DNA from: an uncultured bacterium
GTDB lineage: Bacteria > Verrucomicrobiota > Lentisphaeria > Victivallales > UBA1829
Reading direction: 5' to 3'
DNA: 64,000 nucleotides
NCBI GenBank assembly: GCA_902762495.1
Contig: CACWOL010000033.1
Span: 1 to 64,000, forward strand
The notes below the pieces were generated by a model. The model was given only the letters and a program-made list of their open reading frames with translations. It was not told where the DNA came from and made no database searches. The translations under genes and the position numbers were made by a program. Below are positions 13,313 through 46,601 of the stretch, one piece after another. Numbering within the stretch: the stretch's first letter is position 1; each line of letters opens with the position of its first letter.

Positions 13313-13386
13313 ATTTTCATCAAATCTGTAAACCGTGTTCTCAACCTATGCTCCGGTACGCCGGGGCGAATCAACAGGAGAAAACC

Positions 13387-15084
13387 ATGAGTCCGAGCAA
13401 GAAGACCTCAGCCAAAACGAAAACCGCCGCGAAAAAGTCCGCGCCCGCCGCGAAAAAATCCGAAGCGAAAAAGACCGTCGCGAAGAAAGCGCCCGCGAAG
13501 AAAACCGCCGCGAAAAAGGCGGCTTCCGAAGTCTATCCGGGCGAGACCGCGCCGGAACGCGTCATCAAGGCCGATTTGAAGGTCGTGAAGGGCGAACGGT
13601 CCGACATCTGGCGCGACTGCGTCGGGGCAGGGCGCATCGGCGAAGGCCTGCGCGACACCTGGCGCAAACAGCTCGCGAAATGCAAAAAGGAACTCGGATT
13701 CCGGTATCTGCGCGCGCACGGGCTTTTCCACGACGAGATGCGCGTGTACAGCGAGGACAAGGCAGGCAATCCCGTGTACAACTTCATGTACATCGACGAT
13801 GTGTTCGATTTCCTGCTTTCCATCGGTGTCAGGCCGTTCGTCGAACTCAGTTTCATGCCCGAAAAACTCGCCTCCGGCAAGACCACGATCTTCTGGTGGA
13901 AGGCCAACGTGACCCCGCCGAAGAAGCATGAACGCTGGGCCGACCTCATCCGCGCGACCGTCCAGCACTGGACCGAACGCTACGGCGAGGACGAAGTGAA
14001 GACGTGGCGGTTCGAGGTGTGGAACGAGCCGGATCTGGACGTGTTCTGGGATCCCGGCAGGAAGACCACCATGCTCGACGCCTACCTCGAACTCTACAAA
14101 TACACGGCGCGGGCGGTCAAGTCCGTGAACAAGACGTATCCGGTCGGCGGTCCCTCCGGCGCCGGACTCGACTTCATCGCGCCGCTCGTGAAATACTGCC
14201 GCAAGAACCGCCTGCCGCTGGATTTCATCTCGTTCCACCAGTACGGATTCGACCCGGAGAATCCGGCCCTGCCGAAGATCGACCGGTTCGGCGGCAACTA
14301 CATCTACCTCATGAAGAACCTCCGGCACGTGGCCGACTGCTTCAACAGGAAGCTGGAGGACATCCGCAGGAACCTCCGCTGCGACGTCCCCGTCTACATC
14401 ACCGAATGGCACGCGTCGCCGTCTCCGGTCGACCCCGTGCACGATTCGTATTTCGCAGCGCCGTTCATCCTGGAACAGCTCCGCAACACGGAAAAGATGG
14501 CATGCATGAGCCTGTGGACGTTCACGGACATCTTCGAGGAATGCGGACCTGCGCCGCGTCCGTTCCACGGCGGATTCGGCCTTATGACGTTCCAGAGCAT
14601 TCCGAAGGCCGCCTACCGCGCGTACCAGTGCCTGGCGGCGCTCGGCCCGACGGAGCTCGTTTCCAGCGACGCGTCGTCGTATGTCTGCAAGGACGCGAAG
14701 GGCGGCGTGCAGGCGCTCTTCTGGGACCTCAGCCACCCCACGCAGGGCGGCAGGATCAGCAACCAGGACACGTTCTTCGATCCGCATCCGGCGAAAGATA
14801 AAGGCCATGCGCTGTTCAGTATCACCGGGCTCAAAGCCGGTGAATACGACCTGCGCGTGACCCGCATCGGCTACCATGCCGGCGACGCGTATTCCGCGTG
14901 GCTGGAGGAGGACGGCGCGAAGACGGACATCAGCCGCGAGGAGATCGCGCGTCTGATGCGCGTTTCCCAGCTCCGCCCGATGTACCGCGCGCAGGTCACG
15001 GTCATGAAGGGCGAGGAATTCCAGCTCGGCCTGGACATGAAGCAGAACGACGTCTATTTCGTGGAACTGGTCCCCTTGAAGTAA
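13387..15084 (+). CDS. GH39-like glycoside hydrolase (beta-xylosidase type) with Lys/Ala-rich N-terminal tail
   Basis: A 565-residue retaining glycosidase of the GH39/clan-A type. The catalytic acid/base is in VWNEPD (Glu 214) and the nucleophile in YITEWH (Glu 340). HQYGFD (about 284-289) is a further conserved barrel strand. A beta-sandwich-like C-terminal third follows, after about residue 440. Residues 1-48 are an almost pure Lys/Ala tail of AKK-type repeats like eukaryotic histone H1 or bacterial Hc1, and no hydrophobic signal peptide is present. The start is fixed by GGAG 8 nt upstream of the ATG at 13387. It is probably monocistronic. A 47-bp palindromic repeat begins at the base after its stop codon. 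Confidence 0.82.
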   Translation: MSPSKKTSAKTKTAAKKSAPAAKKSEAKKTVAKKAPAKKTAAKKAASEVYPGETAPERVIKADLKVVKGERSDIWRDCVGAGRIGEGLRDTWRKQLAKCKKELGFRYLRAHGLFHDEMRVYSEDKAGNPVYNFMYIDDVFDFLLSIGVRPFVELSFMPEKLASGKTTIFWWKANVTPPKKHERWADLIRATVQHWTERYGEDEVKTWRFEVWNEPDLDVFWDPGRKTTMLDAYLELYKYTARAVKSVNKTYPVGGPSGAGLDFIAPLVKYCRKNRLPLDFISFHQYGFDPENPALPKIDRFGGNYIYLMKNLRHVADCFNRKLEDIRRNLRCDVPVYITEWHASPSPVDPVHDSYFAAPFILEQLRNTEKMACMSLWTFTDIFEECGPAPRPFHGGFGLMTFQSIPKAAYRAYQCLAALGPTELVSSDASSYVCKDAKGGVQALFWDLSHPTQGGRISNQDTFFDPHPAKDKGHALFSITGLKAGEYDLRVTRIGYHAGDAYSAWLEEDGAKTDISREEIARLMRVSQLRPMYRAQVTVMKGEEFQLGLDMKQNDVYFVELVPLK

Positions 15085-15131
15085 GGAAGACAAGTCCTCC
15101 GCTGAGGCAGTGCCGGGCTTCGCTCCGGCAC
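15085..15131. repeat. triple-palindrome repeat, copy A
   Basis: One of three 47-bp copies (others at 29244-29290 and 45060-45106). It comprises three adjoining palindromes: GGAAGACAAGTCCTCC, a degenerate middle one, and a 22-nt GC hairpin with arms GTGCCGG and CCGGCAC. It starts on the base immediately after the TAA of the GH39-type gene. Confidence 0.85.
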
Positions 15132-15150: not shown

Positions 15151-15183
15151 ATCCCGTGCCGTTCATCGCGGTACGGGATTTTT
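15151..15183. terminator. bidirectional terminator between convergent genes
   Basis: ATCCCGTGCCG (15151-15161) pairs with CGGTACGGGAT (15169-15179) with one wobble. The plus side has TTTTT and the minus side TTCTTTTTT. It serves the GH39-type gene and the thioredoxin-fold gene ending at 15209. Confidence 0.85.
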
Positions 15184-27176: not shown

Positions 27177-29243
27177 ATGGCCGACAACGTCAAAACGCTT
27201 ACCGTGAACGGACGCGAAGTCACGTTCACGAACGAACGCAACCTCCTCGAAGTCATCCGCAAAGCCGGGATCGAGATCCCGACCTTCTGCTACCACTCTG
27301 AACTGAGCATCTACGGCGCATGCCGCCTCTGCCTCGTCCTCGTCGAAGGCAAGGGCATCATGGCGTCCTGCTCCACCGCCCCCGCGCCCGGCATGGTCGT
27401 CCACACGGACACCAAGGAAATCCGCGACATGCGCAAAATCAGCGTGGAGCTTCTGCTCGCCAACCACAACCGCGAATGCCCGACCTGCGCCCGCAACGAG
27501 AACTGCACCCTGCAGCGCATCGCCTACCAGCTCGGCGTCCAGGACATCCGCTTCAAATCCGTGAAGAAGGACGATCCGATCGACTTCTCCTCCCCGTCAC
27601 TCGTCCGCGACCCGAACAAGTGCGTGCTCTGCGGCGACTGCGTACGCGTCTGCTCCGAAATCCAGGGCATCGGCGCGATCGACTTCTCGAACCGCGGTTC
27701 CAACGCCCGCGTGGCTCCGGCCTTCGGCGCTTCCCTCGGCACCGTCGAGTGCGTGAACTGCGGCCAGTGCGCCGCCGTCTGCCCCACCGGCGCGATCGTT
27801 CCGAAGCAGGACCGCAACCGCGTGTGGGACGCCCTGTACGATCCCACCAAGACCGTCGTGGTCCAGATCGCTCCGGCCGTCCGCGTGGCGCTGGGCGAAT
27901 ACTTCGGCGCGAAGCCGGGCGAGAACGTGGCCGGCAAGCTCGTCGCCGCCCTGAAGCTCATGGGCTTCAAGCACGTCTACGACACCAGCTTCTCCGCCGA
28001 CATGACCATCTTCGAGGAAGCGACCGAGCTCATCGACCGCATCGCCCACGGCGGCACGCTCCCGATGTTCACCAGCTGCTGCCCCGCCTGGGTCAAGTTC
28101 GCAGAGATCTACTTCCCTGAAATGATTCCGCACATCTCCAGCTGCCGTTCCCCGCAGGCCATGTTCGGCTCCATCGCCAAGAAGGTCCTGCCCGAACAGC
28201 TCGGCTGCAAGCGCGAAGACCTCGTGGTCGTTTCCATCATGCCCTGCACAGCGAAGAAGTTCGAAGCCCAGCTGCCGAAGTTCAACGTCGACGGCAAGCA
28301 GGAAGTCGATATCGTCGTGACCACCAGCGAAGTCCAGCGCATGATCAACTCCATGGGCATCAAGCTCAACGAGCTCCAGCCCGAAGCATTCGACATGCCC
28401 ATGGGATTCGCGACCGGCGGCGGCGTCATCTTCGGCGCGTCCGGCGGCGTCATGGAAGCCGCGCTCCGCTATGCGGTCGAAAAGCTCGACGGCAAGCCGC
28501 TCGCCAGCGTCGACTTCAAGGCCGTCCGCGGCATGAACACCCTCAAGGAAGCCACCGTGACCGCGGCAGGCAAGGAAATCCACGTGGCGGTCGTCCACGG
28601 CCTCGCCAACGCCAAGCGCCTCATCAATGACGTCCGTTCCGGCAAGGCCCACTACGACTTCGTCGAAGTCATGGCGTGCCCCGGCGGCTGCATCTCCGGC
28701 GGCGGCCAGCCCGTCGGCGTCACCGACGCGATCCGCGTCCAGCGCCAGCAGGGCCTCTACGCGGCCGACAAGTCCCAGCAGGTCCAGAAGTGCCAGGACA
28801 ACTTCCTGGTCGACCAGTGCTACAAGGACCACATCGGCGGCAAGCCCGGCTCCCCCGAAGCGCACCACCTGCTGCACACGGTCTACCAGAACCGCAGCCA
28901 AATCTTCGACGCGAAGATTCCGATCATGCGCGGCACCGCTCAGAACCGCTTCATGATCACCGTCACGATCTGCGCCAAGCAGGACAACTGCCCCGGCCAG
29001 CTCCTGATCGGCATGATCTCTGAATACGTCCGAAACAAGAACTACACGGACAAGGTCGACATGGACGCCGCGTTCTCGTCCCGTCCCGAACAGGACGGCA
29101 CGATCTGCGTGACCATCGGCGACGAAGTCGTCGAGCGCACCAAGTTCAGAAACGCCCTGAACACGCTGGAACAGCTCCAGAACCAGGCCGCGTTCGAGAC
29201 GATCAAGAAGAAGATCGACGAGAGCGTCGCCAAGCTCGGCTGA
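27177..29243 (+). CDS. hydA: [FeFe]-hydrogenase catalytic subunit alpha
   Basis: A 688-residue H2-activating subunit. N-terminal 2Fe-2S (Cys 38, 49, 52, 65) is followed by a His-Cys3 4Fe-4S site (His 97, Cys 101, 104, 110) and two 4Fe-4S motifs (about 149-159 and 192-202). The H-cluster is TSCCPAW (299-305, with the proton-transfer Cys 301), MPCTAKK (Cys 357) and MACPGGC (Cys 501 and 505). All catalytic cysteines are present. The usual end is near residue 570 (HHLLHT); about 115 extra residues follow with Cys 599, 605 and 644 and a helical tail. It is the last gene of the operon. A triple-palindrome repeat abuts the stop and a terminator follows. Confidence 0.95.
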   Translation: MADNVKTLTVNGREVTFTNERNLLEVIRKAGIEIPTFCYHSELSIYGACRLCLVLVEGKGIMASCSTAPAPGMVVHTDTKEIRDMRKISVELLLANHNRECPTCARNENCTLQRIAYQLGVQDIRFKSVKKDDPIDFSSPSLVRDPNKCVLCGDCVRVCSEIQGIGAIDFSNRGSNARVAPAFGASLGTVECVNCGQCAAVCPTGAIVPKQDRNRVWDALYDPTKTVVVQIAPAVRVALGEYFGAKPGENVAGKLVAALKLMGFKHVYDTSFSADMTIFEEATELIDRIAHGGTLPMFTSCCPAWVKFAEIYFPEMIPHISSCRSPQAMFGSIAKKVLPEQLGCKREDLVVVSIMPCTAKKFEAQLPKFNVDGKQEVDIVVTTSEVQRMINSMGIKLNELQPEAFDMPMGFATGGGVIFGASGGVMEAALRYAVEKLDGKPLASVDFKAVRGMNTLKEATVTAAGKEIHVAVVHGLANAKRLINDVRSGKAHYDFVEVMACPGGCISGGGQPVGVTDAIRVQRQQGLYAADKSQQVQKCQDNFLVDQCYKDHIGGKPGSPEAHHLLHTVYQNRSQIFDAKIPIMRGTAQNRFMITVTICAKQDNCPGQLLIGMISEYVRNKNYTDKVDMDAAFSSRPEQDGTICVTIGDEVVERTKFRNALNTLEQLQNQAAFETIKKKIDESVAKLG

Positions 29244-29290
29244 GGAGGACAAGTCCTCCACTGCAGCAGTGCCCGGCTCCGCTCGGGCAC
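29244..29290. repeat. triple-palindrome repeat, copy B
   Basis: A 47-bp copy starting at the base after the hydA TGA. The first palindrome GGAGGACAAGTCCTCC and the middle ACTGCAGCAGT are identical to copy C. In the third hairpin the arms read GTGCCCG and CGGGCAC, where copies A and C have GTGCCGG and CCGGCAC, so both sides of one base pair changed together. Confidence 0.88.
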
Positions 29291-29304
29291 AAGTGAAATC
29301 CTTT

Positions 29305-29338
29305 TCCTCCGCTCTTTTACAGGGGCGGAGGAATTTTT
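29305..29338 (+). terminator. terminator of the hydrogenase operon
   Basis: TCCTCCGC (29305-29312) pairs with GCGGAGGA (29325-29332), followed by ATTTTT. It lies 62 nt beyond the hydA stop, after repeat copy B. Confidence 0.88.
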
Positions 29339-42920: not shown

Positions 42921-43961
42921 TCAGTCTCCAAAGGGTAGGTCCAATGTCGTTTCGTTTATTTCTTTCCAAACGGTTCCACTAAGACTGGTTCCCCCTATTA
43001 CGCATGCTGCTTCCGAAATAGAATCAAACACCTCATCTGAGAGCAAAACGAGATTGTTGTCTACACCGTTTTTTTCTAAGTTCACACGACGTTTATGATA
43101 ACTTGGTTTCTTTTTTAGGCTTTCTTTTATACCGAAAGCAAGTTTTGAACCGGCTTTTACAACAAACTTTTCGCCTAAATAAAAACCATATGCATCAGCT
43201 TTGCGTGAATTCATATGCAGCATTTTTTTATCATGGATGTTTGTTCCTCTTTTCCGCTTGACATTTATGTGCAAATCTTCAGATGTGATGTCATGCTTTT
43301 TCCTGTTCTTTTTGGGGCGTTCTTCTGAGTTTTCTGAAGGGGAGAGCATTTCTTTTTTGCTATCTTTCTTTTTGATTTCAAAGATATCACATCCAGCTTG
43401 ACAAGATAATATGTCAAAGGCGTCATCTATGTATGAAGCAAGTTTTTCCTCAACGTTAGCCTTTTTCCTTTCATCGGGTTCTGAGGGGCGTTGCTTATTC
43501 TCCATGCTATATTGCCCGGCTTCATTTGCCTTTGTATAAAAAAGCCACTCTAAATAGCTTATTTCATTTTCTGATAAAAGATCTTCATTCTTGCTGGTCA
43601 GGGCAAACCCGATATCCCATTTGATAGAGTCTTTTTTACGTTTATGTTTGTCTAGCATTCGACGTATTAATCCTTTGCCGTTGCTTCGGCAATCGGCTTT
43701 TCCGATATACGCACTGTGATTTTCTGAATTGATCAGAATATAGGTCCCAGCCATCTTTAGCTCATCTTGGTAGCTTTCGAATCGTTTTCCTGTGTATCCC
43801 TGTTCAAAAGCTTTGCGTTTTGAATCCAAAACATGTGCATGCGCATATGGAATACGATAGAGGATAACGTGATTCGGAGGTGATACGGTTGCTGCGCGCA
43901 TACATCTATTTTGGGTTCCGCAAAAGAAGTTTACTTTCAAGCCCAAATCTTTTGATAACAT
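42921..43961 (-). CDS. GIY-YIG nuclease-like protein with DUF4357-type C-terminus, AT-rich and probably acquired
   Basis: A 346-residue protein. A GIY-YIG-like fold is suggested by TYILINSENHSAYIGKA (73-89), followed by Lys/Arg-rich RRMLDKHKRKK and an acidic Glu in NEISYLEW (about 132-139), a possible metal ligand. A charged middle links to a C-terminal half with VLLSDEVFDSISEAACVIGG and SGTVWKEI, the DUF4357 pattern. Base composition is far more AT-rich than all neighbours and codon use differs, with many AAA, TTT and GAT. It has its own strong promoter and a GAGG ribosome site. Such genes often accompany restriction or defence islands, but no methylase or other defence gene is next to it. 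Confidence 0.68.
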   Translation of the reverse strand: MLSKDLGLKVNFFCGTQNRCMRAATVSPPNHVILYRIPYAHAHVLDSKRKAFEQGYTGKRFESYQDELKMAGTYILINSENHSAYIGKADCRSNGKGLIRRMLDKHKRKKDSIKWDIGFALTSKNEDLLSENEISYLEWLFYTKANEAGQYSMENKQRPSEPDERKKANVEEKLASYIDDAFDILSCQAGCDIFEIKKKDSKKEMLSPSENSEERPKKNRKKHDITSEDLHINVKRKRGTNIHDKKMLHMNSRKADAYGFYLGEKFVVKAGSKLAFGIKESLKKKPSYHKRRVNLEKNGVDNNLVLLSDEVFDSISEAACVIGGTSLSGTVWKEINETTLDLPFGD

Positions 43962-44096: not shown

Positions 44097-46601
44097 TTAC
44101 TGGGGCGGGCGCTTGATGCTGGAGCGGGAGGGGGGCTCGGTGCGCGGGTCCTCCGGCCAGTTGTGCTTCGGGTAGCGGCCGCGCATGTCTTTCCGCACGA
44201 GGAAATACGAGCCGTCCCAGAACTCGTCCAGGTTCCGCGTGATCTGCACGGTCCGCATGGCGGGCGAGAGCAGGTCGAACACGAGCGGGACGCGTCCGCC
44301 GGCGATCTTCGGCGAATGCGCGAGGCCGAAGACTTCCTGAAGCTTCACGCGCACCATCGGCGCGGCCGGGTCGGAATAGTCGATGGCGATGTGCGAGCCG
44401 CTCGGGACCTCGAAACGTTCGGGCGCGAGCGAGTTCAGCGTGGACTGGGCTTTCGGCGGGAGCATGGCGGCGAAGATGGAACGGTAATCCAGGTCCGCGA
44501 GCCTGTCGAGGCGGCTGACGCCGTCGAGGTGCGGCGTGAGCCAGTCTTCGAGCGTGTCGAGCAGGTACTGTTCCGAGCAGTCGGGAAAGCCCTCGCAGCC
44601 GTGCACGTGCAGGAACTGGATTCGGCGGAGGAATTTGAGCTGGGCGGGGGAGAGTCCGAGCGAGGCGAACCCGCGTTTGCGGATGGCGGCGATCAGGAGG
44701 GATGCAGTGTCGTCGCCGGGACGCAGATTCGACGGCCTGCGTTCGATTGTCAGCGAACCGACGGCTTTCACATTGAACACGCGCACGCACAGCGCATCGT
44801 CGTCCCAGACCGTTTCTCGGCGCGTGCGGAAGAGGTCCGGCAGGGAGGATTCGAGTGCATTGATGTCGAGCGGGAGCGCGAGGCGGATCGTGGGTTGCCC
44901 GGAGAGTCCGCCGGAATCCGCCACGGCGAGGTATTCCGAATCGCGGAGCGGGTCGTGCGCGCCGAGCCTGGCGGTCATGCCGTTGGAGAGCAGGTATTCG
45001 GGGCGGTCGCAGCCGGAACGCCGCCGCGCGATACGGTCTGGGTATGCCGCCGCAAGGACGGAGGACAAGTCCTCCACTGCAGCAGTGCCGGGCTTCGCTC
45101 CGGCACGATGGGGTAAAACGGCTTCGAGCTGGGAGACGGCCTTACGGATTCGGTCAAGCGTTTGGCGGTCCGCCGGTGCGGTTGAAGCATTGTCGAGCGC
45201 GGCGAGGCGTTCGGCGAGGTCGGCGGTCTGTGGATTGACGAGCGGGTCGCGGTCGGACAGGATCGCGGCGATCTGAAGTGCTTCGCGGCGAAGTCCGTGC
45301 GAGTCGGCGAAGAGGATGGCGTTCGCGAGGCGCGGATGCACGGGCAGGCGGTGCAGGAGCTTGCCGTGCGGCGTGATCTGGCCGGTTTTCGGTGAAATCG
45401 CGCCGAGTTCGGTCAGCAAATTGAACGCATAGTCGAGCTTGACTTCGGGCGGCGGCGTCATCCAGGGCAGGGCGGCGGCCTTTTCGCGAACAACGCCCCA
45501 TTGCGCCAGTTCCAGCGCGAGCTCGGTGAGGTCGGCGTGCTCGATCTCCGGCGGGGCGAAATCCGGCATGGCGTTCTGTTCGTATTCGTGCCAGAGACGG
45601 ATGCAGACGCCCGGCGCGGTGCGTCCGGCGCGCCCGCGGCGCTGTTCGGCGGACGCCTTCGAGATTCTGACCGTGCGGAGCTGGTCCATGCCGGACGCGG
45701 GGGAGAAGAACGGCATGCGGGCGAGGCCGGAGTCGACCACGATGCGGATGCCGGGGATCGTGATGCTGGTCTCTGCGACCGGGGTGGCGAGGATGATGCG
45801 GCGGCGGTCCGAGGGCGCGAACACGCGGTCCTGTTCGGCGGCGGAGAGTGATCCGTAGAGCGGGAGGACTTCGCAGTCGTGGCGCATGGAGGCGAGTTCG
45901 GCGGCGGTGCGGCGGATTTCCGCCTCGCCGGGGAGAAAAATGAGCGCGTCGCCTTCGTGATCGCGCATTGCATCCAGCACGACCGAGGCGGCATGCGGTT
46001 CGACCGGTGCGCCGGGTTTCAGCGGCGCATAGCTCACTTTGACCTCGAAACATCGTCCCGAGGCGTTGACGACCTCGGTATTCTGTCCGAGCAGCCCGGC
46101 GGCGGAATCCGCGTCGAGCGTGGCGGACATGAGCGCGATGCGGAGGTCGTCGCGGAGAATGGAACGGGCATCAAGCGTGAGGGCGAGCGCGAGATCGGCG
46201 TGGATGCTGCGTTCGTGGAATTCGTCGAAGATCACGGCGGAAACGCCCTCCAGCGACGGGTCGCGCTGGAGCATGCGCGTGAGCAGAGCCTCGGTCACGA
46301 CCTCGATGCGCGTGTCCGCCGAAACGAGTGTTTCGAAGCGCGTGCGGTAGCCGACAGTCTTCCCCGGCGGTTCGTTCAATAAGGATGCCATGCGCCGGGC
46401 CGCGGCGCGCGTGGCGATGCGGCGGGGTTCCAGCATGACGATCTTCCCCGTCGGCAGCACGCCCGGTTCGAGCAGGGCCAGCGGCACGACGGTGCTTTTG
46501 CCCGCGCCGGGTTCCGCCGTGATGACCAGCGGACGGCAGGCGTGCGCGGCATCCGCGATCTGCGGCAGGACGGCGTCGACGGGGAGACCGGAGCGGATCA
46601 T
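44097..46601 (-). CDS. hrpB: ATP-dependent helicase HrpB with an in-frame repeat insertion
   Basis: An 834-residue DEAH-box helicase. Walker A is EPGAGKST, the Walker B variant FDEFHER, and motif III SATLD. QRRGRAGRTAPG is motif VI, and HrpB C-terminal domains follow, ending in WPEDPRTEPPSR-like sequence. The start at 46601 overlaps the sirtuin stop as ATGA. An open frame continues upstream but is only the sirtuin antiframe. At 45060-45106 a 47-bp palindromic repeat inserts about 16 residues (RAGAKPGTAAVEDLSS) just before the conserved AYPDRIARR block, without breaking the frame. The cellular role of HrpB is not well established. Confidence 0.9.
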   Translation of the reverse strand: MIRSGLPVDAVLPQIADAAHACRPLVITAEPGAGKSTVVPLALLEPGVLPTGKIVMLEPRRIATRAAARRMASLLNEPPGKTVGYRTRFETLVSADTRIEVVTEALLTRMLQRDPSLEGVSAVIFDEFHERSIHADLALALTLDARSILRDDLRIALMSATLDADSAAGLLGQNTEVVNASGRCFEVKVSYAPLKPGAPVEPHAASVVLDAMRDHEGDALIFLPGEAEIRRTAAELASMRHDCEVLPLYGSLSAAEQDRVFAPSDRRRIILATPVAETSITIPGIRIVVDSGLARMPFFSPASGMDQLRTVRISKASAEQRRGRAGRTAPGVCIRLWHEYEQNAMPDFAPPEIEHADLTELALELAQWGVVREKAAALPWMTPPPEVKLDYAFNLLTELGAISPKTGQITPHGKLLHRLPVHPRLANAILFADSHGLRREALQIAAILSDRDPLVNPQTADLAERLAALDNASTAPADRQTLDRIRKAVSQLEAVLPHRAGAKPGTAAVEDLSSVLAAAYPDRIARRRSGCDRPEYLLSNGMTARLGAHDPLRDSEYLAVADSGGLSGQPTIRLALPLDINALESSLPDLFRTRRETVWDDDALCVRVFNVKAVGSLTIERRPSNLRPGDDTASLLIAAIRKRGFASLGLSPAQLKFLRRIQFLHVHGCEGFPDCSEQYLLDTLEDWLTPHLDGVSRLDRLADLDYRSIFAAMLPPKAQSTLNSLAPERFEVPSGSHIAIDYSDPAAPMVRVKLQEVFGLAHSPKIAGGRVPLVFDLLSPAMRTVQITRNLDEFWDGSYFLVRKDMRGRYPKHNWPEDPRTEPPSRSSIKRPPQ
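45060..45106. repeat. triple-palindrome repeat, copy C, inside hrpB
   Basis: A 47-bp copy identical to copy B in its first two palindromes and to copy A in its third. It is intact and translated from the minus strand as part of HrpB. Unlike copies A and B it is not at a gene end. Confidence 0.9.

Follow-up and report, generated by a model that had tools for sequence, protein, structure and literature searches.

The classic case of palindromic repeats that lie in frame within genes is that of the RPEs of Rickettsia (Ogata et al., reviewed in PMC10969869 and PMC3733652), which are about 150 bp long or CGTC-tagged (RPE-4, RPE-6), with nearly half of them located in genes. Intragenic REPs, either single or grouped, were also described in Opitutus terrae, where RNA helicase genes are among the targets, and in Rickettsia and other bacteria (Di Nocera et al. 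2013, PMC3733652), and these intragenic copies encode between 20 and 82 residues (PMC3733652). REPs are biased towards the 3' ends of genes, and some of them supply the stop codon (PMC3733652). Translation in E. coli can be lowered by REPs that lie no more than 15 nt from the stop codon (PMC12306157).

The element described here was found in a stretch of DNA of 64,000 nucleotides (64 kb, hereafter the window) from a genus of rumen Lentisphaeria. Like the Opitutus REPs, it is a short hairpin repeat of high copy number, located mostly 3' of genes and rarely in divergent spacers, with some copies in frame inside genes, RNA helicases included. Unlike them, it has two dissimilar hairpins per unit, no fixed GTAG tag and no RAYT that could be found, its 5' end is often placed exactly at a stop codon, and its in-frame units form a copy-number series at a single orthologous site. 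It shares with the RPEs the presence of a palindromic repeat in frame in genes, here hrpB and an ArnT-like gene, whose proteins are otherwise intact, and differs from them in its unit of 47-48 nt, in the small proportion of copies within genes (about 4%, 4/102) and in its host.

As in the REPs and BIMEs of E. coli, the hairpins occur in 3' UTRs, are partly clustered and sometimes lie no more than 15 nt from a stop codon, although the second hairpin, the weak tag and the lack of a detected RAYT gene set the present element apart. The MITE-like elements derived from IS200/IS605 also have hairpin ends without long terminal inverted repeats, but for the element studied here no parent with matching ends was found and no target site was established.

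A literature search found no paper that names both a term beginning with "Lentisphaer" and one beginning with "repetitive extragenic palindrom". The element is a new family, even though in-frame REPs as a phenomenon are already known from Opitutus and from the RPEs. The original prediction was right that in-frame elements occur in Rickettsia, but its doubt about any precedent for such a structure stands only for the family itself, given that the intragenic REPs of Opitutus offer a described parallel.

The repeat unit and its family

The copy within hrpB (copy C, 45060-45106, + strand; 77.9 bits, E 3e-27) is composed of GGAGGACAAGTCCTCC-ACTGCAGCA-GTGCCGGGCTTCGCTCCGGCAC, that is, a first hairpin with the structure GGAGGA-CAAG-TCCTCC (45060-45075, +), a nine-base linker, and a second hairpin (45085-45106, +), both hairpins being indicated by the fold and by the covariation of their stems over 18 copies. 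The second hairpin has three matches with up to three mismatches in the 64-kb window, against 0.00 expected, and the three copies of the window have E values of 1e-24 to 3e-27 under model R1, which together rule out chance.

The genome (2.76 Mb in 96 contigs) contains 44 matches at E<=10 by BLAST, and 118 at E<=0.1 when searched with a covariance model made from 18 copies, which gives a family of about 100-118 copies. The stems are paired in 96.7% of the cells, against 86.6% in shuffled sequences, seven pairs have changed on both sides among the 18 copies, and the covariation score reaches 0.284, compared with 0.099 in the shuffles and at most 0.061 when the partners are slid. A short palindromic unit with a high copy number, which is mostly extragenic and lies 3' of genes, is what characterizes REPs in general, and the 47-mer belongs to a genus-specific family of this type.

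The CGTC tag is absent from the consensus of the element and from both of its ends. The second hairpin is preceded by GTAG in 20 of the 56 strong copies and by GCAG in 14, the last G being the first base of the stem. The element has no terminal inverted repeats of the MITE kind, as its ends are two different hairpins, and no family of Rfam 15 matched the window at gathering scores, nor did the copy at 15085 produce any match in a permissive scan. A second class of the first hairpin (CACACGGAGTGTG, ACACCGCAAGCGGTGT) was also observed, joined to the usual second hairpin and forming mixed arrays at gene ends, the site of the copy at 29244 (site A) among them.

The family is widespread in the genus, in which all the genomes compared appear to be drafts. 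About 80 to 160 matches per genome, with no more than 150 candidates scored in each, were obtained in 12 of the 13 genomes, and only G006, whose hrpB is 61% identical, had none. The nearest named genome, the sheep-rumen MAG Lentisphaeria bacterium RGIG6864, is probably the same assembly as G001 and was counted once. Outside the genus, the rest of the order gave no copy at E<=1e-6, out of a total of 137 genomes searched, and a laxer search gave 11 weak matches in G013, a genome of the same family.

Placement at the 3' ends of genes

Genes were called with a home-made caller, whose codon-usage model had been trained on the window together with loci of this genome, and the 55 genes of the window make up 90% of its length. 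Classification was performed on 102 copies of the genome, each with at least 24.8 bits. At a coding density of about 90%, 98 of these copies are intergenic and four lie in genes, so that the search for the 47-mer called for by the original prediction returned a family which is overwhelmingly non-coding. The intergenic copies occupy convergent (40), unidirectional (50) and divergent (1) spacers, with a further seven having one flanking gene uncalled.

The 5' end of the element is tightly associated with the ends of genes. Among the copies of this genome whose 5' end has a gene running towards it, 13 begin at distance 0 from a stop codon, where placement at random within the same spacers predicts 0.66, and 24 lie 0-8 nt from one, where 5.4 would be expected. 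On the 3' side of the element, no stop codon that faces it comes closer than 5 nt.

Two of the flush copies are the remaining ones of the window, which had been taken to be non-coding and are so. The copy at 15085-15131 (+) begins at the base after the TAA of a gene with a glycosyl hydrolase family 39 domain (13348-15084, +), and the copy at 29244-29290 (+) at the base after the TGA of the iron-only hydrogenase large subunit gene (27177-29243, +), and both are polymorphic in the relatives (sites B and A, respectively). Judging from the sequence, terminator-like stems with a T run follow these copies, at 15151-15183 (+) and 29304-29338 (+), and the copy at 15085 is presumed to lie in a 3' UTR, given the stem downstream of it. 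Stems of this kind were found 30-52 nt past the element at five of the 12 sites checked, and, since they lie downstream, these copies are probably part of the transcribed 3' UTR rather than the terminator themselves. An intrinsic terminator was also ruled out for the element as such, as no T run follows its second hairpin.

At six orthologous sites, compared in up to 11 relatives, the element may be present, absent, or swapped for another variant or array. In most of the carriers the array starts flush with the stop codon, TAA or TGA alike, and, at the same site, the stop codon differs between species and different variants of the element start at the same base. The stop-like trinucleotides directly 5' of the strong copies are all true stop codons, and a simple TRA target motif was rejected on these grounds.

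These patterns bear on the idea that the family spread by gene conversion, or is selected as an RNA 3'-end element acting in mRNA stability or translation termination, with the hrpB copies as by-products. The excess of copies at and near the stop codon, the common starting base of different variants in different species, the probable 3' UTR position upstream of terminator-like sites and the effect of nearby REPs on translation in E. coli (PMC12306157) are all in its favour, but close species differ in which copies they have, and many orthologous 3' ends lack the element, so that no single 3'-end copy is essential, and this idea is considered possible, if on balance unlikely.

The exact adjacency of the extragenic copies to the stop codon is the least explained part of the analysis, and the one a specialist would least expect. 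It can be proposed, with considerable doubt, that the element recognises gene ends, or is selected at them, with single-base precision, its 5' hairpin being flush with any stop. If so, the element would be a dispersed and transferable module of translation termination or of 3' ends, from which coding copies such as that of hrpB would be escapes, or, in an alternative form, the flush placement would result from a mechanism of insertion that is directed to the ends of genes.

In-frame copies in hrpB and in a glycosyltransferase gene

The hrpB gene (44097-46601, - strand) encodes an ATP-dependent helicase HrpB of 834 aa plus the stop codon, with DEAD, Helicase_C, HA2_C and HrpB_C domains. Its frame is uninterrupted from 46601 to 44097, with the element on the opposite strand, and the codons at 45060-45107 (-) are read as RAGAKPGTAAVEDLSS, which corresponds to the 16 residues 499-514. 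The E. coli HrpB (PDB 6eud/6heg) aligns with this protein over its whole length (E 1e-160). The palindromic repeat predicted in frame at 45060-45106 is thus confirmed with exact coordinates, and the open frame, the four domains and the full-length alignment are consistent with a gene that remained intact and tolerated the element as protein.

In the AlphaFold2 model (alignment of 33 sequences), the mean pLDDT is 89.8, and residues 500-509 form the sole internal segment below 50. They fall within the stretch encoded by the element and between the helices 479-495 and 512-519. The linker at this site varies in length and sequence across HrpBs, and the block that follows it is conserved in the alignment. 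Given the predicted disorder and the variability of the linker in all HrpBs, the encoded stretch is most likely a neutral, tolerated and disordered spacer.

Two other features of this region can be mentioned. The start codon of hrpB overlaps the stop codon of an upstream SIR2-family gene (ATGA, 46598-46601 of the window), an arrangement that suggests translational coupling. Beside hrpB, at 42921-43961, there is an AT-rich ORF, with a GC of about 0.38 in surroundings of 0.66. Its N-terminus has a GIY-YIG-like motif recognised by eye, it matches a PHROG of unknown function and, weakly, DUF4357, and it was probably acquired.

The site was compared in the 11 genus-mates with a readable hrpB, G012 being left out, as its gene is cut by a contig end. 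One unit is present in the genome of the window (G000) and in G008, whose hrpB is 78-79% identical; two units are found in G002, G005, G007 and G010, three in G003, the closest relative, four in G009, and none in G001, G004, G006 and G011, and the insertion point is always between QLEAALP and AAAYPDRIA. Seven of the genus-mates, G008 included, carry one to four related units at this very position, and the insertion is therefore not recent, contrary to what had been predicted on the condition that homologues lacked these residues, which four of them do. Nor do the relatives all possess the same 16 residues in unrelated codons. The possibility of an assembly or binning artefact of the metagenome-assembled genome may be raised by the draft state of the assemblies, but it is practically negligible, as eight genomes, assembled separately and differing in sequence and copy number, have the insertion at the same point.

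The sites without the element have an unrelated linker of about equal length. The homologues with an empty site have either the same length as the HrpB of the window (G004) or one residue fewer (G011 and G001), which means that the element encodes about 16 residues, as predicted, but does not add them as a net gain. No decayed remnants were detected in the empty linkers of G001, G004 and G011 at E<=10 in unfiltered searches.

The length differences at the hrpB site are multiples of three throughout, and the spacings within the coding arrays are 48 and 96 in hrpB and 99 in the ArnT-like gene, whereas, between adjacent non-coding copies, 19 of the 25 spacings are not divisible by three. In G007, G002, G005 and G010, changes of -7 and +1 bases compensate each other; one unit is thereby shifted to a different frame, in which it reads RAGSEARHSISRGLVL, while the downstream frame is kept and the gene is retained. 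The single unit of G000 looks like a contracted array, its left junction being GCAAGGAC followed by GGAGGACAAG, which we infer may be the trace of a deletion that joined two units in an array similar to that of G009. In the trees of both hrpB and the ArnT-like gene most nodes have less than 80% support, and gains and losses cannot be counted from them.

A second gene, which encodes a PMT/ArnT-like glycosyltransferase (contig C11, 19444-21576, locus L196; orthologues L289-L301), also carries the element in frame, in the same strand and frame as in hrpB. One unit, read as RAVAKQGTASVEDLSS or a close variant, is present in G000, G002, G004, G007, G008, G009 and G010, three tandem units occur in G001, and G003, G005, G006 and G011 have clean empty sites. 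The clearest pair is TTTGCG-CCG-GATGAG in G011 and TTTGCG-48 nt-GATGAG in G002, a net gain of 15 residues without target-site duplication. The encoded peptide is nearly identical across species whose neighbouring DNA is 86-94% identical, which could reflect constraint. In G008, this gene (L295) is 85-91% identical to those of its genus-mates, compared with 78-79% for hrpB (L046), a gap that likely points to gene exchange between species. The structure model of this protein was left out, as it was poor (pLDDT 50 from 10 sequences).

Two weaker in-gene cases were found. A degenerate sense-strand copy, GDRTSTDVMLGFAPIE, with 28.9 bits, lies in a large putative glycosyltransferase at C58:7762 (L278; orthologues L279-L281) and is shared with G002, G004 and G005, and at C42:3564 the element forms a C-terminal extension of a small ORF. 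In the relatives, most of the long open frames with the unit peptide were shadow frames opposite real genes and were dropped after gene calling.

Of the six possible frames, two are free of cysteine, and all four in-gene copies of G000 are read in one or the other of these, a pattern of small numbers seen after the fact. Together with the equal strand and frame of the two strong cases and the nearly unchanged ArnT peptide, this could be taken as a sign of exaptation, in which units of the RAGAKPGTAAVEDLSS type are kept as a useful spacer or binding surface in HrpB and in the glycosyltransferase. Such a role is improbable, given that the number of units varies among close relatives from zero to four in hrpB and from zero to three in the ArnT-like gene, that four genomes read one unit out of frame without losing hrpB, and that the segment is predicted to be disordered, and the use of frames can equally be a matter of survivorship, as the other four frames contain cysteine.

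Spread of the element and its meaning

The search for a mover returned no RAYT in the 13 genomes by PF01797, and the NCBIfam model NF047646, whose cut-off is 80 bits, scored no higher than 33. The four PF01797 hits belong to IS200/IS605 (NF033573 being the best match), which ruled out a RAYT as the mover. No tyrosine transposase was found in the genus apart from the IS200/IS605 TnpA of these Y1_Tnp hits, which four of the 13 genomes carry (L037, L178, L179 and L180); the gene is intact in G012 alone, those of G000, G001 and G004 being fragments or truncated at a contig end.

The element may be envisaged as non-autonomous and of IS200/IS605 type, with its hairpins recognised as single-stranded DNA by an IS200 TnpA acting in trans. 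The two adjacent hairpins of each polar unit, the occurrence of TnpA or its fragments in four genomes, the presence or absence of the element at identical points in relatives, and the view that related tyrosine transposases move REPs (PMC3733652) are compatible with such an origin. It is nevertheless rather unlikely, since eight of the 12 element-rich genomes have no detected TnpA, no copy was seen as the end of a tnpA gene, and no target-site rule was found beyond gene ends.

The explanation considered probable, with good confidence, is that of a REP-type element which spreads through the genome, survives in 3' UTRs and is only rarely kept in frame in linkers, where it changes unit by unit and encodes a neutral, disordered peptide. 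The two-hairpin element of 47-48 nt, presumably mobilised by an enzyme through its hairpin DNA, would reach about 100 sites in each genome, surviving mainly in the 3' UTRs of genes, while almost all the copies that land in genes would be purged. Survival within a gene would need an open frame, a length change in multiples of three and a flexible-linker position in the host protein, all together.

In hrpB, the element would have replaced or overgrown the variable linker between the helix 479-495 and the helix of LAAAYPDRIA. The array would then grow and shrink unit by unit, from zero to four, probably as near-identical units slip or recombine with one another, while purifying selection would act on the HrpB frame alone. 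Against this explanation, no transposase was found to move the element, and the empty sites of hrpB are not a clean pre-insertion state, so that, given their unrelated linkers, it must be assumed either that the element came in and the former linker was lost, or that the element has decayed completely at those sites.

With these results, the known range of intragenic REPs widens to include the Lentisphaeria and genomes in which no RAYT gene was detected. The flush placement at stop codons provides a direct way to test the role of REPs in translation termination. Finally, a natural series of zero, one, two, three and four in-frame hairpin repeats at one site of a widespread helicase gene is available within a single genus, and, together with that of the ArnT-like gene, it allows the conversion of a selfish or regulatory repeat into protein, the neutrality of the residues and the frame-keeping of length to be tested.
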